DNA from: Amycolatopsis tolypomycina
GTDB taxonomy: Bacteria > Actinomycetota > Actinomycetes > Mycobacteriales > Pseudonocardiaceae
NCBI RefSeq assembly: GCF_900105945.1
Contig: NZ_FNSO01000004.1
Span: 2,790,001 to 2,854,000 of the forward strand
DNA: 64,000 nt
Direction: 5' to 3'
Positions 17,700-29,650 of this stretch are shown one piece after another (position 1 is the first letter of the stretch; the number at the start of each line of letters is the position of its first letter). A model generated the notes under the pieces. It made no database searches. It was given only the letters and a program-made list of their open reading frames with translations, and was not told the origin of the DNA. The position numbers were made by a program, and so were the translations under genes.

Positions 17700-17814
17700 C
17701 GTGTCCGCCGTCATACCCGTGCCCGGGAGTGAATCGCACACAGTCCCTCCCGGTAACCCTCCGGGCGGGCACCGCAACTTTGGGGTCCACCCCGTCCGAG
17801 GAGACCGAAGCACC

Positions 17815-19623
17815 GTGGCAGCTTCCGCCGGGCATCTCCGCCCGGGACGCTATCTCGCCCTGTTCGCCCTGATCGTGATCGTCTTGTACGCGCTGGTGTT
17901 CCTCACCGGCAACCACAAGCCGACCCCGAAGCTGGGTATCGACCTGCAGGGCGGCACCCGGGTCACGCTCACCGCCCGCACCCCCGACGGCGGCCAGCCG
18001 ACCCGTGAGTCCCTGAACCAGGCCCGCCAGATCATCGAACGGCGCGTCAACGGGATCGGCGTCAGCGGCACCGAGGTCCTCCTCGACGGCAACAACGTCG
18101 TGATCACGGTCCCGGGTGAGCAGGGCGACCAGGCGAAGAACCTGGGCAAGACCGCGAAGCTGGGCTTCCGGAAGGTCGTCTCCGCCGCCACCCAGCCGGT
18201 GGTGCCGCCGCAGCCGACCACCCCGCCGCCCGCCACGGGCACCCCGACCTCGGGTGCGCCGAACTCGGGTGCGCCGACCTCCGGCGCGCCGACCTCGGGC
18301 ACCAAGCCGCCGGCCACGTCGACCGCGCCGCCGACGGCAGGCGGCGGTGGCGCCGCCGGTGCCCTCGCGCAGCAGCAGAGCACCACGCCGGCCGCGCCGA
18401 GCAGCAGCGCCCCGCCCGCGTCGACCCCGGCGCCGGCTCCCGCGCCGTCGGACGGCTCGGTCGACGCGCAGACCGCGCAGGAGATCCAGGCCGCCAAGGC
18501 CCTCCGGCAGAACCCGCAGCTGATCGGCGCCGACGGCCAGCCGAACCAGGAGCTCGTCGCCAAGGCCATGGCGGCGCTCACCTGCGCGCCGAACGCCAAG
18601 GACCCCCTCGAGGGCAACGACGACCCGAAGCTGCCGCTGGTCGCCTGCGGTGACAATGACACCGCCAAGTACCTGCTGGAGCCGGAGTTCCTGCCGGGCA
18701 CCGAGATCGCCGACTCCACCTCGGGCTACGACCAGCAGCGCGGCCAGTGGGTGGTGAACCTCAGCTTCAAGAGCGAGGGCACCAAGACCTGGGCCGACTT
18801 CACCTCGAAGAACCAGGGCCAGCAGGCCGCGTTCGTGCTCGACACGCAGGTCGTGTCCGCGCCGAACATCCAGGTGGCCATCCTCGACGGCAACACCCAG
18901 ATCACCGGCAAGTTCACCCAGACCGAGGCGAAGAACCTCTCGGACATCCTCAAGTACGGCTCGCTGCCGCTGTCGTTCGCCTCGTCGGACGCGACCACGG
19001 TGTCGGCGACCCTCGGCCTGGCCTCGCTGGAGGCCGGCCTGATCGCCGGCGGCATCGGCCTGCTGGTCGTGTTCATCTACTGCCTGTTCTACTACCGGCT
19101 GCTCGGCGTGCTCACCATCCTGTCGCTGGCCCTGTCCGGCGCGCTGGTGTTCGCGGTGCTGGTGCTGCTCGGCCGGTGGATCGGCTACACGCTGGACCTC
19201 GCGGGCATCGCCGGCCTGATCATCGCCATCGGTATCACGGCGGACTCGTTCGTCATCTACTTCGAACGGCTCAAGGACGAGATCCGGGAGGGCCGGACCT
19301 TCCGGTCCGCGGTGCCGCGCGGCTGGGTCCGCGCCCGGCGCACCATCCTGGCTTCGGACGCGGTGAGCTTCCTGGCCGCGGCCATCCTGTACGTCATCGC
19401 GGTCGGCGACGTCCAGGGCTTCGCGTTCACCCTCGGCATGTCCACGGTGCTCGACCTGGTCGTCGTGTACCTGGTGACGCACCCGCTGGTGGCCATGGTG
19501 TCCACGTCCAAGAACAGTTTCCTGTCCAATCCGAGGCACCTGGGCCTCGGCGCCGTGCAGCAAGTGGGTTCGCAGCGTAAGAAGTCGACCTCGGTCGGCC
19601 GCGCGAACGTGAAGGAGGCCTGA
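17815..19623 (+). CDS. secD: protein translocase subunit SecD
   Basis: A 602-aa RND-like membrane protein that uses the proton gradient to pull exported proteins across the membrane. TM1 (YLALFALIVIVLYALVFL) is followed by the SecD signature LGIDLQGGTRVTL, the P1 domain, and five C-terminal helices with AGLIIAIGITADSFVIYFER. Between the P1 halves (about residues 127-215) is a Pro/Thr/Ala/Ser-rich spacer with repeated TSGAP units, longer than in E. coli but of a type seen in actinobacteria. GTG 17815 is chosen after GAGGAGACC; the earlier GTG at 17701 would add a non-conserved leader. Confidence 0.95.
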   Translation: MAASAGHLRPGRYLALFALIVIVLYALVFLTGNHKPTPKLGIDLQGGTRVTLTARTPDGGQPTRESLNQARQIIERRVNGIGVSGTEVLLDGNNVVITVPGEQGDQAKNLGKTAKLGFRKVVSAATQPVVPPQPTTPPPATGTPTSGAPNSGAPTSGAPTSGTKPPATSTAPPTAGGGGAAGALAQQQSTTPAAPSSSAPPASTPAPAPAPSDGSVDAQTAQEIQAAKALRQNPQLIGADGQPNQELVAKAMAALTCAPNAKDPLEGNDDPKLPLVACGDNDTAKYLLEPEFLPGTEIADSTSGYDQQRGQWVVNLSFKSEGTKTWADFTSKNQGQQAAFVLDTQVVSAPNIQVAILDGNTQITGKFTQTEAKNLSDILKYGSLPLSFASSDATTVSATLGLASLEAGLIAGGIGLLVVFIYCLFYYRLLGVLTILSLALSGALVFAVLVLLGRWIGYTLDLAGIAGLIIAIGITADSFVIYFERLKDEIREGRTFRSAVPRGWVRARRTILASDAVSFLAAAILYVIAVGDVQGFAFTLGMSTVLDLVVVYLVTHPLVAMVSTSKNSFLSNPRHLGLGAVQQVGSQRKKSTSVGRANVKEA

Positions 19624-19624
19624 C

Positions 19625-20851
19625 ATGGGGGTCGAAGAACTGGACACGGACGCCGAGGGCAACGCCAAGGTGGCGGCCAAGCCCGGCAAGAAGGAAAGCG
19701 TCTTCCACCGGCTCTACGTCGGCACGGGCGCGTTCGACGTCGTCGGCAAGCGCAAGCGCTGGTACGTCTTCTTCGGCGCGCTGGTGCTGGTGTGCCTCCT
19801 GTCGATGATCATCCGCGGCTTCAACCTCGGCATCGAGTTCGAGGGCGGCACGCAGATCCAGATGCCGGCCAACGGCACCCACGGCGTGATCACCGAGGAG
19901 CAGGCCAAGGAGTCGTTCCAGAAGGCACTCGGTCACCCGGCGACGGAGACGCAGAAGGTCGGCACGGGCAACGCCTCGACCATCCAGATCCGCACCGAGA
20001 CGCTGAACGCGGCCGACGTCGCCAAGCTGAAGCAGACCCTGTTCCAGGACCTGGGCCCGATCGGCAGCAACGGCCAGGCCAGCGTCCAGGCGATCAGCGA
20101 CAGCGCGGTGAGCGCGTCCTGGGGTGGCGAGATCTCGCAGAAGGCCCTGATCGCGCTCGCGGTGTTCCTCGTCGCGGTGGTCATCTTCCTCGCGGTCTAC
20201 TTCGACCTGCGGATGGCCGCGGCGGCGCTGGTCTCGCTGCTGCACGACATCCTGGTCACCGCGGGTGTGTACTCGCTGATCGGCTTCGAGGTCACCCCGG
20301 CGACCGTGATCGGCCTGCTGACCATCCTCGGGTTCTCGCTGTACGACACGGTGGTGGTGTTCGACAAGGTCCGCGAGAACACGCGCGGCCTGCTCGGGCT
20401 GACCCGCCGCACCTACGGCGAGGCCGCGAACCTCGCGCTGAACCAGACCCTGATGCGGTCGTTCAACACGGCGTTCATCGCGCTGCTGCCGATCCTCGGC
20501 CTGCTGGTCGTCGGGTACATCCTGCTCGGCTCGGGCACGCTGCAGGACCTGGCGCTGGTGCAGCTCACCGGTACCCTCGTCGGCGTCCTGTCGTCGGTGG
20601 CACTGGCGACGCCGCTGCTGGTCGACTTCAAGATGCGCGACCCGAAGTACAAGCAGCAGGCCGAGCGGGTCCGCCAGCGTCGCGCCAGCCAGGAGCGCAA
20701 GGCGGCGGGCGAGGACTTCGACGCCTCCGACGACGACGCCCTGGCGAAGGAACTGCGCAAGGAGAAGGCGTACGCGGCCGCGGCCAGCGTCCCCGCCCGG
20801 ATCCAGAAGCAGCGCCCGGCCGGCAAGCCCGCGGGCAAGCGGAAGCGCTGA
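19625..20851 (+). CDS. secF: protein translocase subunit SecF
   Basis: A 408-aa partner of SecD. It has TM1 (WYVFFGALVLVCLLSMI), the motif FNLGIEFEGGTQIQM, a periplasmic P domain, and five further helices with the conserved GLLTILGFSLYDTVVVFDKVRE. The C-terminal ~80 residues are a charged cytoplasmic tail. The ATG lies directly behind the secD stop, so the pair is co-translated. Confidence 0.95.
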   Translation: MGVEELDTDAEGNAKVAAKPGKKESVFHRLYVGTGAFDVVGKRKRWYVFFGALVLVCLLSMIIRGFNLGIEFEGGTQIQMPANGTHGVITEEQAKESFQKALGHPATETQKVGTGNASTIQIRTETLNAADVAKLKQTLFQDLGPIGSNGQASVQAISDSAVSASWGGEISQKALIALAVFLVAVVIFLAVYFDLRMAAAALVSLLHDILVTAGVYSLIGFEVTPATVIGLLTILGFSLYDTVVVFDKVRENTRGLLGLTRRTYGEAANLALNQTLMRSFNTAFIALLPILGLLVVGYILLGSGTLQDLALVQLTGTLVGVLSSVALATPLLVDFKMRDPKYKQQAERVRQRRASQERKAAGEDFDASDDDALAKELRKEKAYAAAASVPARIQKQRPAGKPAGKRKR

Positions 20852-20852
20852 C

Positions 20853-21371
20853 GTGGAGCTCGACGAAGCCCTCGGCCTGATCGCCGAGGTGCCGGACTTC
20901 CCCGAGCCCGGCGTGCTGTTCCGCGACTTGAGCCCGCTCTTCGCGGACGCGGGTGCGTTCAAAGCGGTGACCGACGCGCTGGCGGGCACCCTCGACCCGT
21001 CGGTCGAGGCGCTCGCCGGCGTGGAGGCCCGCGGCTTCCTCCTCGCCGCGGCCGTCGGGTACGCCCGCGGCCTCGGCGTGGTGCTGATCCGCAAGCCGGG
21101 CAAGCTGCCGGCCGTGGCGGGCCGCGTCGACTACGCCCTGGAGTACGGCACGGCCACGGTGGAGCTCCCGGCCGGCGTGGTCCGGCCGGGCCAGCGCATC
21201 GCCGTCCTCGACGACGTCCTGGCCACCGGCGGCACGGTCGCGGCCACGGGCAAGCTCCTGGAGGACGCGGGCGCGGTGGTCGACAGCGTGTCGGTGGTCC
21301 TGGAACTGGCCGCCCTCGGCGGCCGGGGCGTCCTGGGCGACCGCAAGATCCACGCCCTCCGGACCTGCTGA
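20853..21371 (+). CDS. apt: adenine phosphoribosyltransferase
   Basis: A 172-aa type I phosphoribosyltransferase that makes AMP from adenine and PRPP. The PRPP loop VLDDVLATGGT is intact, with ARGFLLAAAVGYARGLG and the flexible-loop region RKPGKLP upstream. The GTG start is 1 bp after the secF stop. secD-secF-apt-rel is a conserved actinobacterial order. Confidence 0.94.
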   Translation: MELDEALGLIAEVPDFPEPGVLFRDLSPLFADAGAFKAVTDALAGTLDPSVEALAGVEARGFLLAAAVGYARGLGVVLIRKPGKLPAVAGRVDYALEYGTATVELPAGVVRPGQRIAVLDDVLATGGTVAATGKLLEDAGAVVDSVSVVLELAALGGRGVLGDRKIHALRTC

Positions 21372-21384
21372 ACCCGTAACTGGC

Positions 21385-21495
21385 GTGATCCAGCCCGGAT
21401 CTCGCGTGATTGGGGCCGTAACTCACGAGTTACGGCCCCAATCACGTGAGTCACGGCTTCAATCACGCGGGTCACGGGTTCAATCACGCGAGTTC
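21385..21495. repeat. extragenic repeats with a 19-bp terminator stem
   Basis: A perfect 19-bp hairpin (arms 21405-21423 and 21428-21446, loop CACG) follows apt and is a good terminator. Around it the short element CGCGTGATTG, or its complement, occurs three times. The same element recurs near 35.4-35.5 kb. Confidence 0.75.
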
Positions 21496-21604
21496 GTGCT
21501 GGTGACGGGCCCCACATCCCCCTGAACGGGCGCACCCGACAGGGCTGCGAGGCGCAACGGCTACCCTGGTGGTCCGAAGGCCGCACGAGCAGCAGGAGGT
21601 GCGG

Positions 21605-23959
21605 GTGAGCCAGGAGCTCGACGCCGCGGTGCCCGCGAAACAGGGCGCCCAGCAGAACGGGCAGGCGGCGGCACAGCCCGCGCCGCCGAAGCCGAACGGT
21701 GCGGCGCCGAACCCGTCCGCGACCCGGCGGGTCCGGGCGCGCCTCGCCCGGCGGATCACTGCGCAGCGCGCCGCCCCGGTCAAGCAGGTCCTCGAACCCC
21801 TGGCCGTCATCCACCGCGAGCTGCACCCCAACGCCGACCTCGGGCTGCTCCAGCGCGCCTACGACGTCGCCGAGGAACTCCACCGCAACCAGCGGCGCAA
21901 GTCCGGCGACCCGTACATCACCCACCCCCTGGCGGTCGCCACCATCCTCGCCGAGCTGGGCATGGACACCACCACGCTCGTCGCGGCGCTGCTGCACGAC
22001 ACGGTCGAGGACACCGGCTACGCCGTCGAAAGCCTGAAGGCCGACTTCGGCGAGAAGGTCGCCGAGCTGGTCGACGGCGTCACGAAGCTGGACAAGGTGC
22101 AGCTCGGCTCGTCCGCCGAGGCCGAGACCATCCGCAAGATGGTCATCGCCATGGCCAAGGACCCCCGGGTGCTGGTCATCAAGCTCGCCGACCGGCTGCA
22201 CAACATGCGCACCATGCGCTTCCTGCCGCCGGAGAAGCAGGCCCGCAAGGCCCGCGAGACCCTCGAGGTGCTCGCCCCGCTGGCCCACCGGCTCGGCATG
22301 GCCACGGTCAAGTGGGAGCTGGAAGACCTCGCGTTCGCGATCCTGCAGCCCAAGAAGTACGACGAGATCGTCCGCCTGGTCGCCGACCGCGCGCCGTCAC
22401 GGGACATCTACCTGCGCTCGGTCATCACGGACCTGACCAGCAACCTCGTGTCGTCGCGGATCACCGCGAAGGTCGAGGGCCGGCCGAAGCACTACTACTC
22501 GATCCACCAGAAGATGATCGTCCGCGGCCGCGACCTGGACGACATCCACGACCTGGTCGGCGTGCGGATCCTGGTCGAGGACGTCCGCGACTGCTACGCG
22601 GCGATGGGTGTCGTGCACGCGCTGTGGCAGCCGGTGCCCGGCCGGTTCAAGGACTACATCGCCCAGCCGCGGTTCGGTGTCTACCAGTCGCTGCACACCA
22701 CGGTGATCGGCCCGGACGGCAAGCCCCTCGAGGTGCAGATCCGCACCTACGAGATGCACCGCACGGCCGAGTACGGCATCGCCGCGCACTGGCGCTACAA
22801 GGAAACCAAGGGCACGCACAGCGGCAACGCCATGGACGTCGACGAGATGGCGTGGATGCGCCAGCTCCTCGACTGGCAGCGCGAGGCCGCGGACCCGGGC
22901 GACTTCCTCGAGTCCCTGCGCTACGAGCTGGCCGCGCGCGAGATCTTCGTGTTCACCCCGAAGGGCGACGTCATCACGCTGCCGGTGGACTCGACGCCGG
23001 TCGACTTCGCCTACGCCGTGCACACCGAGGTCGGCCACCGCTGCATCGGCGCCCGCGTCAACGGCCGCCTGGTCGCGCTCGAGCGCAAGCTGGAAAACGG
23101 CGAAGTCGTCGAGATCTTCACGTCGAAGGCGGAGAACGCCGGCCCGTCGCGCGACTGGCTGCAGTTCGCGGGCTCGCCGAAGGCCCGCGCCAAGATCCGT
23201 CAGTGGTTCGCCAAGGAACGCCGCGACGAGGCCATCGAGGGCGGCAAGGAAGCCATCACCAAGGAGATCCGCAAGGTCGGCCTGCCGATCCAGCGCCTGG
23301 TTTCCGCGGAGTCCATGGGCGCGGTGGCCACGGAGCTGCGCCACGCCGACATCTCATCGCTCTACGCGGCGGTCGGCGAGGGCCACACGAGCGCAAAGCA
23401 CGTGGTCCAGCGCCTGGTGGCCCTGATCGGCGGCGTCGACGCGGCGGAGGAGGAGCTCGCCGAGCGCGCGACACCGTCCACGGTGACCCGCCGCCGCGGC
23501 TCCAACGACGTCGGAGTGGTGGTCAAGGGCGCCAGCGACGTCTGGGCGAAGCTGGCCCGCTGCTGCACCCCGGTACCGGGCGACGAGATCCTGGGCTTCG
23601 TCACCCGCGGCGGCGGCGTATCGGTCCACCGCACGGACTGCACGAACGCCGGCGACCTGCAGTCCCAGCCCGAGCGCCTGGTCGAGGTCGAGTGGGCACC
23701 CTCGGCATCATCGGTGTTCCTGGTGGCGATCCAGGTCGAGGCACTGGACCGCCACCGCCTGCTCTCGGACGTGACAAAGGTGCTGGCGGACGAGAAGGTC
23801 AACATCCTGTCGGCATCGGTGACGACGTCCCGCGACCGCGTCGCGGTCAGCCGCTTCTCGTTCGAGATGGGCGACCCAAAGCACCTGGGCCACGTCCTGA
23901 AGGTGGTCCGCGGCGTGGAGGGCGTCTACGACGTGTACCGGGTGACGTCGGCTTCCTAG
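21605..23959 (+). CDS. relA: bifunctional (p)ppGpp synthetase/hydrolase Rel
   Basis: A 784-aa stringent-response enzyme. After a ~55-residue Ala/Pro-rich leader comes the HD hydrolase domain with intact HDTVED (131-136), then the synthetase domain ([32 protein letters not shown]). The TGS domain ([14 protein letters not shown]), a zinc-finger-like region ([12 protein letters not shown]) and a C-terminal ACT domain complete it. Both catalytic centres look active, so it is the single long Rel type. The GTG start follows AGGAGG by 5 nt. Its stop shares CTAG with the convergent gene. Confidence 0.96.
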
Positions 23960-24357
23960 AAGAGCGCCGCAACCAGCGCACCAAGCGGTGGCATCGCCTG
24001 GGCCAGCGCGCCACCGCGGCCCGCCCCGCGCGGGCGGCTGAGAGCCAGCACGTCCGACACCCCGAGGGCGATCCCGGCCAGCACCATGAACCCGCAGCAG
24101 TAAAGAACCAACCACCGCCCGGCCTCGACACCCCCGGTATGCAGCAGGATCAACCCAAGCACCGGCCCACAGGCAAGAAACAAGTTATAAAACCCCACAT
24201 TGAACGACCACAGCCGAGTAGCGGGCAAATTCACGGACGGGATCCGAAAAATGCCCTCGTGCACCCCCGGCCGTTCGAACAGCACAACCTCCCAGACGAA
24301 TGCCAGCAGGTGCACCAACACCGCCACCCCAGCGAAAACCTGCGCAACGACGTTCAC
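23956..24357 (-). CDS. DUF1304 family membrane protein
   Basis: A 133-aa protein with four hydrophobic helices. Family landmarks are W near [30 protein letters not shown] in the second helix, and a short Arg/Gly loop before the last helix. The function is unknown. The GTG start overlaps the upstream cupin stop by GTGA, so the two are co-translated. Confidence 0.82.
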
Positions 24358-24767
24358 GACACAAGCTCGATCCCGTGCTGCCCGGCGATCTCCGGAATCC
24401 GCTCGGGAGCAGCCTGGTCGACGGCCCGGAAGAACCGCCCCATCCCGTCCGTCAGGCACACCGCAAGGAACTGCGCAGACGGCGTGTGCACCGTGAAGGT
24501 GTTGGCCGCACCGGCCGGAATACTGATCGACGCACCAGGGACGAGGTCGTGCAGCTCGCCGTCCACGTACACCGTGATGCGCCCGTGGAGCACGTAGAAG
24601 CTCTTCGCCCAGGGCTCGGTGTGCGGCGGGACCGACGGCCCGCGCGGCGCGTCGACCTCGAACACCTCGTAGGCGCCGCCGGTGTGCTCCGCGCCGACCT
24701 TGACGGTGATCCGCGCGTCCTTCGAATCGAGTTCCGGGCCTTCGCCCGGGGCGCTGAAGTGGGTCAT
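24354..24767 (-). CDS. small cupin protein
   Basis: A 137-aa single-domain cupin: PPHTEPWAKSFYVLHGRITV, then VPGASISIPAGAANTF, with two conserved His-containing motifs. The fold commonly binds metal and a small substrate; the reaction cannot be inferred. It is the first gene of a two-gene unit with the DUF1304 protein, and divergent from a LuxR-type gene 90 bp away that may control it. Confidence 0.82.
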   Translation of the reverse strand: MTHFSAPGEGPELDSKDARITVKVGAEHTGGAYEVFEVDAPRGPSVPPHTEPWAKSFYVLHGRITVYVDGELHDLVPGASISIPAGAANTFTVHTPSAQFLAVCLTDGMGRFFRAVDQAAPERIPEIAGQHGIELVS

Positions 24768-25970: not shown

Positions 25971-27626
25971 ATGGCCGACGACACCACGCGCTACCTCTGT
26001 GCGGCGTCCTACCTCGATCCCGCCTACGGCAAGCGGGCCATCACGGAGTTCCTCGTCGAACCCACCCGGCCGGTCCCGCCGTCGACCGGGCTCGACGCGG
26101 GTGTCGTGCTCACCGAGGCGGTGCGGGCGCGGGCGCGCCGCAAGAACTACGACGGGCTGCTGGTGCTGCTCATGGCCGTCGTGCTCGGGCTGCTGTGGGA
26201 CAACCCGTTGCTCTACGCCTGGATCGTGGTGTCGCTGGTGCTCGTCGGCGTGCGGATGGCGCGGAAGGCGTCCGCGCCGGAGAAGCCGGTCAACCCGAAG
26301 ATGATGATCATGCTGGCCGCGGCGATCGTCGTCGCCTGGCTGCTGCTGTCCTATTCGGACGAGATCTTCGACTCCGGGAGCCGGTACTCCTCGCGCTACT
26401 ACGACGACGTCGAATACGACGACTCGTCCGGTGGCGACACCGCCCGCGCGGTCATCGGCATCGTGCTCGCGGTGGTCGTGGGCGTGGTGGCGACGATCGA
26501 GCGCTGGTCGCTGTGGAACCTGGTGACGACGCGCTTCCGGCGGTTCGCCCGGCCCGCCGACGGCGGCGGCAGCCTCACCGGGCTCCTCACCGAAGACTTC
26601 CGGGGGCAGCTCGCCCGCTTCCGGGGTGGCGAAGAGACCGCCGAGACGCCGGGAGCACCCCTGGTGGTCTACCGCGGGTACAACCCGTTCGTGGGCGCCG
26701 GGTACCGGCGTGACGCCTGGTCCATGGCGGTCCCGCTGGAGCGGGTCGAAGACGGCGAAGGCCGGCCGCAGCTGACGACCGAGGCGTTGTACGACGGCAT
26801 CCGCGAGGCGATCGCGAACCTGCGTCACGCGAACGCGCTGACGCCCGACAACCGGCTCGGCGCGCTGACCGTGACCGAGGCGGTGTTCACCCCGGCCGCC
26901 GCGCTGATCGACCACCTGGGGGAGCCGGACGCCGCGACCTACCTGCCGGACGTCACGCACCCGCCGCACACCCGGCTGTCCCCGGACGCCGTCGCCCGGC
27001 TCCGCACCGAACCGAAGGAATGGGCGCGCTACTACCTTTCCTTCCAGGTCGAGACCTGGGACCGCGAGCTGGTGCTCACGACGTTCCTGCACGTCGCCGT
27101 GGACGACACGACGCTGTACGTCGAGTGGACGCCGTTCATGCTGCCGCCGATCCGGGCGGAGTACCGCGTGGTGGACAAGATGCGGCCGGACTCGCTGCGC
27201 CCGCTCGGCCAGGGACTGCTGGCCTGGCTGGAGATGCCGGCGAGCCTGCCGGGCCGGATCCTGAACCTGGTGTCGTGGATCCGGCACCCGAAGCGCGAGG
27301 CCGGCGTCCTGGACCCGGACCGCTACGGCGCCGCGCAGACCCTGCGCGAACTCGGGTCGCTCAACCTGTTCACCGACTACTTCCAGCTCCTCGACATCGA
27401 ACGGTACGAGAAGATCCTCGAGAGCCGGCTGCTCCCGGCGATCGGCAAGCTGCTGGACGAAGCCGGCTTCTCGACGGCGAAGTTCGAGGAGCAGGCGGCG
27501 GTCGTGATCAACAACGACATCACGATCGGCGGCGACAACAGCGCCCCGATCACCCAGACCGGCGTGCGCGGCGCGCGCCGGCGCCCGCCGGCGGCACCCG
27601 GCAGGCGGACCAGGACGGAGGCCTGA
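25971..27626 (+). CDS. multi-helix membrane protein with C-terminal RHIM-like motif
   Basis: A 551-aa protein. Four hydrophobic helices lie at about residues 61-75, 79-96, 111-128 and 160-178. A large soluble domain follows (about 190-505) that I do not recognise (LVVYRGYNPFVGAG, LVLTTFLHVAVDDTTLYVEWTPF). Near the end, residues 514-532 read NNDITIGGDNSAPITQTGV; the core I-T-I-G-G-D-N fits the (I/V)x(I/V)Gx2N pattern of RHIM-like amyloid signalling motifs. The next gene carries nearly the same motif at its N-terminus and overlaps by TGATG. I infer a membrane-bound partner in a homotypic signalling pair. Confidence 0.7.
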   Translation: MADDTTRYLCAASYLDPAYGKRAITEFLVEPTRPVPPSTGLDAGVVLTEAVRARARRKNYDGLLVLLMAVVLGLLWDNPLLYAWIVVSLVLVGVRMARKASAPEKPVNPKMMIMLAAAIVVAWLLLSYSDEIFDSGSRYSSRYYDDVEYDDSSGGDTARAVIGIVLAVVVGVVATIERWSLWNLVTTRFRRFARPADGGGSLTGLLTEDFRGQLARFRGGEETAETPGAPLVVYRGYNPFVGAGYRRDAWSMAVPLERVEDGEGRPQLTTEALYDGIREAIANLRHANALTPDNRLGALTVTEAVFTPAAALIDHLGEPDAATYLPDVTHPPHTRLSPDAVARLRTEPKEWARYYLSFQVETWDRELVLTTFLHVAVDDTTLYVEWTPFMLPPIRAEYRVVDKMRPDSLRPLGQGLLAWLEMPASLPGRILNLVSWIRHPKREAGVLDPDRYGAAQTLRELGSLNLFTDYFQLLDIERYEKILESRLLPAIGKLLDEAGFSTAKFEEQAAVVINNDITIGGDNSAPITQTGVRGARRRPPAAPGRRTRTEA

Positions 27627-27967
27627 TGGGACACCGGATCAGCAACAAGGTCAGCATCGGCGGCGACAACTCCGGCGCGATCACCCAGACGGGCATCGAA
27701 GCCGGCGGCGCCGAGACCGCGCTCCCGGCGTTGCTGGAGCTGGTCGAGCGGCTGAGTTCCGAGGTGCGCGGCCGCGACCTGGCCAAGCAGGAGGTGCTGG
27801 AGGACACGCTGACCGACCTGGCGGCCGACCTGAGCGCGGGCGAGGCCGCGGAGCCGGCGGTGGTGCGCAGCCGCTGGGAGAAGGTCAAGGGCCTGCTGGG
27901 CGGGGTGGCGCAGTTCTCCGAGCTGGTCGCCAAGATCTCGGAGCAGGTGCAGAAGATCTTCGGCTAG
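27626..27967 (+). CDS. 113-aa helical protein with N-terminal RHIM-like motif
   Basis: Residues 7-24 (NKVSIGGDNSGAITQTGI) match the C-terminal motif of the upstream membrane protein at 12 of 18 positions (S/T-I-G-G-D-N-S, I-T-Q-T-G). The remaining ~90 residues are predicted helical and amphipathic (LPALLELVERLSSEVRGRD, then a C-terminal GLLGGVAQFSELVAKI). There is no known enzymatic domain. It overlaps the upstream stop by TGATG and is almost certainly co-expressed. It may be a small effector or adaptor; this is inference. Confidence 0.75.
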   Translation: MGHRISNKVSIGGDNSGAITQTGIEAGGAETALPALLELVERLSSEVRGRDLAKQEVLEDTLTDLAADLSAGEAAEPAVVRSRWEKVKGLLGGVAQFSELVAKISEQVQKIFG

Positions 27968-28797
27968 AGGAACTTCCGCAGCAGGGCGTTGACCTCCGCC
28001 GGCCGTTCCATCGACGGCAGGTGCCCGGTGCCGGCCAGCTCGACGAACTCGGCCTGGGGCAACGACTCCGCCAGGTGCGCCGACAGCTCCACCAGCCCGC
28101 GGGCGTCCGCCGTCCCGACCACCACCAGCGCGGGCGTGGTGATCTCGGCGAGCCGGTGCCGGGTGTCCGGGATCCGCTCCGTCCACTGTGGAGCCGTCCA
28201 GTCGTGGCGGTACACCTGCTCGCACATCTCCCGGACCAGCGCGACCATTTCGCCCGGCAGCACCGAGACATCGCGTGCCGGTCCGGCGACCAGGTACCGG
28301 ATGTTGGCTTCCGCCATGGCCCGCACGTCCGCCGGGTCGACGTCGCCTTCGCGGGCCTGGTAGCGGGCGAGGCGGTCGGGCGGGAGGATCGCCGCGGTCA
28401 GTTCCGCGATGTCCGCCTGCATGTGGTCCGGCCAGGTGTGCCCGGTGAGCCCCGAGCCGAGCAGCACCAGCCGGGTGATCCGCTCCGGTGCGGCGAGGGC
28501 GGCGTCGAGCGCGCACGCCCCGCCCATCGAGGCCCCGACCAGCGCGGCCCGCTCGAGCCCCCGGGCATCGAGCAGGGCGAGCAGGTCCTCGTAGTGGGCG
28601 TGTTCGCCGCTTTCGCCGCCGGTTTCCCCGAACCCGCGGCGGTCGTAGCGGATCACCCGGTGGGTGGCGGCGAGCTCGGTGAACTGCGCGTCCCACATCC
28701 GGCGGTCGCCCAGTGCGGCGTGCAGCAGCACGACGGCGGGCCCCTCTCCCGCTTCGTCGTAGCCGAACGCCGTCCCGCCCACCTCGATCGCCGCCAT
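27964..28797 (-). CDS. alpha/beta hydrolase
   Basis: A 277-aa enzyme of the alpha/beta hydrolase fold. The nucleophile elbow is VGASMGG with Ser90. The acid is probably the Asp in VVVGTADARG, and the base is the His in LAGTGHLPSMERP near the C-terminus. The oxyanion region is LLHAALGDRR. The substrate is unknown; 3-oxoadipate lactonase-like and esterase members share this pattern. It converges on the preceding small gene with a shared CTAG. Confidence 0.88.
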   Translation of the reverse strand: MAAIEVGGTAFGYDEAGEGPAVVLLHAALGDRRMWDAQFTELAATHRVIRYDRRGFGETGGESGEHAHYEDLLALLDARGLERAALVGASMGGACALDAALAAPERITRLVLLGSGLTGHTWPDHMQADIAELTAAILPPDRLARYQAREGDVDPADVRAMAEANIRYLVAGPARDVSVLPGEMVALVREMCEQVYRHDWTAPQWTERIPDTRHRLAEITTPALVVVGTADARGLVELSAHLAESLPQAEFVELAGTGHLPSMERPAEVNALLRKFL

Positions 28798-28870
28798 GGC
28801 CCCAAACTAGCCACACGACCGCGTCACACACCGCCGGTTTCGCTGAGGGCGAGCAGTTAGTGTGCGGGGC

Positions 28871-29650
28871 ATGACCGACGGATTCGACCTGGCGCGCGAC
28901 GGCGAAGTCGCCCGCCTGACGCTGACCCGGCCGGAGAAGATGAACGCCATCACCTACGGCATGTGGGCGGCCATCCCGGATGTCGTGGCCGAGGTGGAGG
29001 CCGATCCGGCGCTGAAGGCCCTGGTGATCGCCGGAGCCGGCAAGCACTTCTCCGCCGGTGCCGACATCAGCGAGTTCGGGGAGCTGCGGACCACGGCCGA
29101 AGGCGCGGCGAGCTACGACAAGGCCGTCGAGGGCGCGGTCGCCGCGCTCACCGCGATGCGCAAGCCGTCGGTCGCGATGGTCCAGGGCAACTGCATCGGC
29201 GGCGGCTGCCAGATCTCCGTCGCCTGCGACTTCCGGTTCGCCGCCGACGGCGCGCGGTTCGGCATCACCCCGGCGAAGCTCGGCATCGTCTACCACTTCG
29301 ACTCGACGCGCCAGCTCGTCTCGCTCGTCGGCCCCGCGCACGCCAAGTACTTCCTGCTCTCCGGCGAGCTGATCACGGCCGCCCGGGCCCGCGAGATCGG
29401 CCTGCTCAACGACGTCTTCCCGGCCGCCGACCTCGAAGCCTCGACGCTAGCCTTCGTCGCAACGCTCTGCTCTCGTTCCCAGGCGTCGGTCCGCGGGATG
29501 AACCGGATCATCGAAAAGATCGTCGCCGGGCAGGAAACCCCGGACGCCGAGGTCGAGGAGATCCGCGCGGAGGCCCTGCACGGCGAGGACTACGCGGAGG
29601 GCGTCGCCGCGTTCCTCGAGCGGCGCCCGCCGCGGTTCACCTTTCGCTGA
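28871..29650 (+). CDS. crotonase-superfamily (enoyl-CoA hydratase-like) protein
   Basis: A 259-aa crotonase fold. The oxyanion-hole pieces FSAGADISEFG and GNCIGGGCQISVACDFRFA are clear. The two acidic residues used by true enoyl-CoA hydratases are not seen: Gln114 sits where the first Glu is expected (GGGCQ), and Ala135 or a neighbour replaces the second (FGITPAKLG). A different CoA-ester reaction is therefore likely. The ATG follows GCGGGGC, and the message may be leaderless. Its 3' end overlaps the next convergent gene by 14 bp. Confidence 0.85.
   Translation: MTDGFDLARDGEVARLTLTRPEKMNAITYGMWAAIPDVVAEVEADPALKALVIAGAGKHFSAGADISEFGELRTTAEGAASYDKAVEGAVAALTAMRKPSVAMVQGNCIGGGCQISVACDFRFAADGARFGITPAKLGIVYHFDSTRQLVSLVGPAHAKYFLLSGELITAARAREIGLLNDVFPAADLEASTLAFVATLCSRSQASVRGMNRIIEKIVAGQETPDAEVEEIRAEALHGEDYAEGVAAFLERRPPRFTFR

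Follow-up and report, generated by a model that had tools for sequence, protein, structure and literature searches.

A membrane protein and its overlapping partner carry matched terminal motifs in Amycolatopsis tolypomycina and its relatives: a candidate NLR-independent signalling pair

The gene pair and its shared motif

The window analyzed here, a stretch of 64,000 nucleotides from the soil bacterium Amycolatopsis tolypomycina, contains two overlapping genes on the forward strand, one encoding a membrane protein of 551 amino acids (25971-27626; GC3 of 0.95, which is gene-like) and the other a partner of 113 amino acids (27626-27967), for which 38 proteins with E ≤ 1 were found, the partner itself included. 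The stop codon of the first gene and the start codon of the second overlap by one base (TGATG) and a GGAGG ribosome-binding site (27617-27621) precedes the partner start, the whole element being read from the sequence at 27617-27628 (+). Through this overlap, translation of the partner is probably coupled to that of the membrane-protein gene.

Upstream of the pair lie secD, secF, a phosphoribosyltransferase-like gene (apt) that scores slightly below the Pfam cut-off, relA and then a LuxR-type regulator, while an alpha/beta hydrolase on the opposite strand and an enoyl-CoA hydratase are found downstream. The pair is hence located between secD-secF-apt-relA (17701-23959) and the hydrolase and hydratase genes, with the region from pair to hydratase spanning 25971-29650. 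In eight close relatives (loci L009-L014, L016 and L019) the hydrolase and the hydratase are likewise downstream of the pair and, in seven of them, relA is upstream, the contig of L010 starting later. At loci L015, L017 and L020-L058, the window neighbours tested were absent from the flanking DNA examined, save the partner in L015 and L017; locus L018 entered this comparison cut short. A Pfam scan of the window's own neighbours between 17.7 and 33.5 kb, leaving aside the ORF at 23956-24459 (-), detected no NB-ARC or NACHT (NLR) domain, and Pfam found none in either the membrane protein or the partner.

For the membrane protein, AlphaFold2 predicted long helices at residues 43-74, 79-100, 109-127 and 153-188 (26097-26534, +), with an acidic loop preceding the last of the four. 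Hydrophobicity and charge, judged by eye, suggest that all four cross the membrane, and the topology was assigned on the same basis. They are followed by a large, conserved, mixed alpha/beta domain (residues 229-514; 26655-27512, +), which we took as cytosolic; it resembles START and Bet v 1 folds only weakly and is possibly of the START-like ligand-binding kind. The model ends in a poorly predicted tail (mean pLDDT of 64 for residues 511-520 and below 50 for residues 520-551). Neither a match to the PADLOC models nor, in the family searches, a sensor family was identified in this protein.

A total of 243 homologues at E ≤ 0.01 were recovered among 7998 candidates scored, the best 120 of which were listed. 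The distribution of the family is patchy: it was present in 33 of 296 genomes of the class at E ≤ 1e-5, in six of the sampled families, in 65 of 200 genomes of the family at E ≤ 1e-10, and in three of the 11 same-genus genomes listed, that of the window included. In one genome of the genus (G488, C1:8430078-8431794, +) the membrane gene was spread over two frames, either because the gene is disrupted or through an error in sequencing.

The partner was modelled by AlphaFold2 as a four-helix bundle (helices at residues 28-47, 55-70, 77-91 and 95-112; 27707-27961, +) with a mean pLDDT of 74.1 and a pTM of 0.58. Its sequence suggests a distant DUF5955-like family: the window protein scored 15.3 bits, below the Pfam gathering score of 27.1, a distant relative (L073) reached 27.6 bits, and 20 of 39 members of the partner family matched at E ≤ 1. 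PADLOC returned one match for the window partner, at E 0.014.

The C-terminal tail of the membrane protein, ITIGGDNSAPITQTG, matches the N-terminus of the partner, VSIGGDNSGAITQTG. The motif comprises residues 513-531 in the membrane protein (INNDITIGGDNSAPITQTG; 27507-27563, +) and residues 5-23 in the partner (ISNKVSIGGDNSGAITQTG; 27638-27694, +), within which the matched stretch covers residues 517-531 (27519-27563) and 9-23 (27650-27694), respectively. These positions are close to residues 514-532 and 7-24, for which the initial annotation had proposed near-identity. In a single BLASTP comparison of both proteins, this stretch was the sole significant match (17 of 31 residues identical, E 1e-7), and the remaining aligned pieces had E values of at least 2.6. 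At the DNA level, the pattern [IMV]x[IMV]GGDN occurred twice in the 10,363,431-base genome, both times in this gene pair, and the reversed control pattern did not occur in it. Similarly, when 32 residues of the tail were searched against the whole genome, the only matches at E ≤ 10 were the tail itself and the partner (E 0.002). Compared with shuffled partner N-termini, the window pair gave z = 11.9, and z = 10.1 with longer segments; the match is far beyond chance.

Co-variation of the motifs across relatives

To the 51 loci obtained from the scan of named genomes, whole-genome searches added L061-L118; some genomes in L090-L118 repeat those in L009-L059 (e.g., L097 and L045 come from one genome), an overlap for which the dereplicated counts alone allow. 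The gene following the membrane-protein gene often starts with a motif like the tail of its own membrane protein, even where that motif has wholly changed, as in the pairs of L020 (NFGAFNVGGKVFGDLGGATV with NYGAFNVGGTVKGNLSGATV), L028 (ITGPVISSNIGTTGRARTGKANVG with IQGPVIGSNVGTSGRARTGDVHIG) and the Micromonospora locus L058 (QTGGLSVVGNQAVGTGARA with QSGGVSQVGNQAVGPGAYA). The best adjacent ORF reached z > 5 at 82 of 109 loci, with no such ORF at the other 27, a count that was selected on the motif match and not dereplicated and is thus no independent test.

In two tests, the partner was chosen with the motif unseen or removed. In the first one, the partner was picked by GC3 alone and one representative was kept per group under 60% identity (n = 44), L018 being dropped because its membrane gene is truncated at the end of the contig and L054 and L089 for having no candidate ORF. 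Own pairs had a mean score of 59.3 vs. 29.3 for foreign pairs, the own-pair mean being reached in none of 20,000 permutations, and a control in which tails were compared with partner residues 61-120 gave 21.9. The own partner ranked top in 26 of the 44 cases and not top in 18, surpassed the partner of the nearest relative in 30 and lost to it in 14, and had z > 3 in 32. When representatives were taken under 45% identity (n = 25), the means were 57.8 and 27.9 (again none of 20,000 permutations), with the own partner top in 14, above that of the nearest relative in 15 and below it in 10, and z > 3 in 16. Among the failures, L027, L061, L063, L075 and L077 had the wrong ORF picked and a better one alongside, and L042, L044, L053 and L087 had no adjacent ORF with z > 3. 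A natural pair from Lentzea does not match.

In the second test, partners were located with a profile built on 39 partners from which the motif columns had been removed, 30 of these being loci chosen by hand after the pairs had been seen. Since the profile derives from helical partners, the test is restricted to partners of this kind; it located one in 79 of the 109 loci, and the other 30 were dropped. With 35 representatives, own pairs averaged 73.1 vs. 31.9 for the others (none of 20,000 permutations), and the own partner was top in 26, above that of the nearest relative in 28 and below it in seven. Tail similarity and N-terminus similarity were correlated (0.55), and a partial Mantel r of 0.43 was retained after removing the relatedness of the protein cores (none of 2000 permutations, n = 35). 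Under 45% identity (n = 19), the corresponding values were 73.1 vs. 31.6, top in 14, 15 above and four below, with a partial correlation of 0.38. Under 90% identity (n = 65), the own partner was top in 31 and below that of the nearest relative in 21, as expected where relatives still share the motif. Taken together, the motifs are matched, pair-specific and co-evolving over distant lineages. In line with the initial annotation, which had pointed to the C-terminal and N-terminal placement in two overlapping genes, the matched pair is maintained in many actinomycete relatives.

It could be argued that the likeness is a functionless remnant, left by a DNA duplication at the locus or by gene conversion from one neighbour to the other, given that the copies are adjacent and that identical aligned residues show a slight excess of shared codons (321 of 517, vs. 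282 expected from codon use). However, codons agree at 62% of these residues where 55% would be expected, the serine at membrane-protein residue 524 is encoded by AGC and that at partner residue 16 by TCC, and the match persists both in lineages whose motif is altogether different and in those with another partner domain. We consider this explanation hardly credible. With codon sharing this near to expectation, the match is kept mainly through selection at the level of the protein, and the small excess leaves room for some exchange at the DNA level. That the tags have changed together in so many relatives suggests that they serve in mutual recognition for the passing of a signal.

Relation to RHIM and BASS3 motifs

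RHIM motifs have the core [IVL]x[IVL]GxxN. Both window motifs fit [IV]x[IV]GxxN, which many close Amycolatopsis relatives retain, and the initial annotation had placed the pair with RHIM or BASS3-like motifs. This membership did not find support. Pfam RHIM (PF12721) matched neither protein at E ≤ 1, with search filters that drop most matches above approximately 0.1, and it matched nothing in the whole genome or in the control genomes at E ≤ 0.001; the identical search gave one over-threshold match among the 296 genomes of the class, so it is able to detect the domain. That match lies in a genome of the same order (G031, C19:2707-2757, -), in a frame of 125 amino acids.

Within 40 clade representatives, whose segments were selected on the motif match and include one spurious pair (L108), the RHIM-like core was present in four tails and two N-termini and in both members of only one pair, that of the window. 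Local alignment with the Frankia BASS3 peptide (PMC8086366, Table 2), the one experimentally tested peptide on which this comparison rests, gave z values of -0.13 against the tail and 0.22 against the partner, i.e., shuffle level. Based on the Pfam result, the rarity of the core and the peptide comparison, the RHIM look is, as judged from these sequences, one of several states through which a rapidly evolving motif passes. It is very improbable that the pair is a genuine RHIM/BASS3 system sharing ancestry with the RHIM of animals and the PP motifs of fungi, despite the core that the window pair shares with its close relatives, and the lack of an NLR among the scanned neighbours also speaks against it.

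The initial annotation had named, as jointly contrary to its reading, the lack of a match to any amyloid motif profile and a motif embedded in a globular domain of both proteins. The former was observed for one profile, RHIM. The latter was not, as both motifs fall in low-confidence ends of the models: in addition to the tail described above, pLDDT was below 50 for residues 1-3 and 6-27 of the partner.

Exchangeable partner domains and a proposed signalling role

The domain behind the N-terminal motif is not always the helical bundle. In L088, the motif precedes a domain that matched both PNP_UDP_1 (E 6e-19) and a PADLOC 'Effector' model of the PN-superfamily (4e-22), in L078 and L084 it precedes EAD1 (8e-15 and 2e-14), and in L045 and L050 a domain with no Pfam match, these last two proteins being 60% identical. 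PNP_UDP and EAD1 are domains from known conflict systems. In the GC3-blind test, the motif match of these replaced partners gave z values of 10.1 (L088), 8.2 (L078), 8.7 (L045) and 10.5 (L050), and of only 2.7 for L084. Exchangeable domains joined to an unchanging tag are what one would expect of recruitment by homotypic contacts, and such arrangements have been published for EADs (PMC8195603) and for amyloid motifs (PMC7889193, PMC9815663).

Neighbouring genes that share matched motifs of the amyloid type are already known as NLR/effector pairs. The BASS motifs found in NLR/Bell gene pairs of bacteria (Dyrka et al. 2020, as described in PMC7889193, PMC8086366 and PMC9815663) resemble those described here in that the genes are adjacent or overlapping, the motif is C-terminal in one protein and N-terminal in the other, the hosts are filamentous actinobacteria, and there are many motif types, sometimes repeated. 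In the published pairs, as described in PMC7889193, the C-terminal motif belongs to an effector and the N-terminal one to an NLR sensor. Here, by contrast, the scanned neighbours hold no NLR, the C-terminal motif belongs to a membrane protein of 551 amino acids that has a large soluble domain, and the N-terminal motif to a protein that is either a small helical bundle or the carrier of an effector or adaptor domain. Compared with RHIM of animals and BASS3/PP of bacteria and fungi, the [IV]x[IV]GxxN core is shared by the window pair and many close relatives, unlike the Pfam match, the general presence of the core and the peptide similarity considered above.

EADs (Kaur et al. 2020/2021; PMC8195603, PMC7159879) are likewise homotypic modules by which one core recruits many effectors, and two of the partners described here carry EAD1 itself; the tag of the present pairs is, however, a short and apparently unfolded motif, whereas an EAD is a helical domain. 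The L088 partner joins PNP_UDP_1 and a motif, as do the PNP_UDP proteins of fungi that bear the PUASM amyloid motif (PMC9815663), from which it differs in the motif sequence, in the end that bears it (N-terminal here) and in that the other member is a membrane protein instead of an NLR.

We propose, with somewhat more confidence than doubt, that membrane protein and partner together make up a homotypic signalling pair of two components, in which the membrane tail would nucleate a cross-beta stack and the partner would thereby be switched on. The membrane protein would combine four membrane helices, an alpha/beta domain and a flexible tail whose short motif is rich in Gly, Asn, Ser, Thr and beta-branched residues, and the partner would open with the same motif ahead of its helical bundle. 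A stimulus would cause the membrane protein to expose or cluster its tails, the clustered tails would nucleate a cross-beta (amyloid-like) stack, and this stack would recruit and template the partner N-terminus, so that partner domains would be brought together and switched on as executioner or adaptor.

Within this proposal, homotypic signalling is well supported, and direct binding between the two motifs would be its likely basis. Amyloid assembly is plausible by analogy, with the cross-beta form suggested by the likeness of arrangement and by composition: aligned motif segments contain 19.5% Gly and 8.7% Asn, vs. 8.8% and 1.3% from partner residue 71 onwards. Most likely, amyloid-type signalling takes an NLR-free form here, in which the four-helix membrane protein serves as sensor or hub.

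The same matched and co-evolving motifs would fit equally well a finite static complex, e.g., paired beta-arches or a short beta-solenoid, in which no self-propagating amyloid forms and the partner is a subunit or regulator. The glycine-rich composition of the segments, the overlapping start, which suggests a fixed stoichiometry, and a weak match of one of the 39 partners to a beta-solenoid family (PF18836, E 0.0018) would also agree with it. On the other hand, the domain swaps, the double motif copies and the actinomycete hosts resemble published amyloid signalling (PMC7889193, PMC9815663), and we regard a static complex as rather unlikely.

As to the direction of the signal, the membrane protein would act first. 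Since the domains that replace the helical bundle are those of effectors or adaptors, we assign this role to the partner and that of sensor or hub to the membrane protein. The opposite assignment, which differs from our proposal in signal direction only, would make the membrane protein an effector (a channel or a membrane-damaging protein) and the partner a triggering adaptor. The C-terminal and N-terminal placement would then mirror that of effector and NLR in PMC7889193, and the membrane protein has no identified sensor family; its large soluble domain is conserved, however, and of the domains that partners have acquired by swapping, PNP_UDP is effector-like and EAD1 adaptor-like, which makes this assignment rather unlikely. 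The swapped domains and the patchy distribution suggest that the pair may serve in defence or in the regulated death of the cell.

More broadly, and as a tentative view that we hold with less than even confidence, this could be a widespread, NLR-independent form of amyloid-type signalling in actinomycetes, in which a membrane sensor templates interchangeable partners through a lineage-specific motif code that would insulate pathways. If so, the sensor would carry a lipid- or ligand-binding domain, its interchangeable partners would be a helical bundle, a PNP_UDP phosphorylase, an EAD1 adaptor and an unclassified domain, and the code of each lineage would stay in step between both proteins and keep them insulated from other amyloid pathways of the same cell.

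The present pair differs from the known ones in that no NLR was found in the stretch scanned and that a membrane protein takes its place. No description of the gene pair appeared in the titles and abstract openings of the matches listed from the open full-text literature, in which subscription journals are mostly absent. A review of 2021 (PMC7889193) poses the question of whether NLR-independent signalling amyloids exist in bacteria and fungi; the present family offers a concrete candidate of a size that would allow reconstitution, and its approximately 40 diverged natural pairs could reveal how sequence sets motif specificity.

Several further arrangements were observed. The partners of L074, L077, L081 and L085 apparently carry two motif copies ahead of the C-terminal domain, and a metagenome protein of 708 amino acids (P0143) fuses the membrane protein, two motif copies and a helical bundle, a fusion of which a search yielded no second example. 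In L065, L066, L068, L070, L076 and L080, all from one genus (g24, family f20), a third gene follows the pair; its product starts with W-N-x-x-[TSA]-Q-x-W-E, mostly continues with a proline-rich part, and is possibly a third component. In Saccharothrix, a protein (L122:904-1647, -) has an N-terminal stretch, NEVGGVVNGPVLQAGTITGNVHV, weakly like the membrane tail of its own genome (E 2.6). Lastly, an unlinked Crossiella protein (L120:1480-2241, -) resembles in a C-terminal stretch the membrane tail of its own genome (E 0.13), and one of its domains is akin to that of the L050 partner (E 3e-11); it may be the missing partner of Crossiella.
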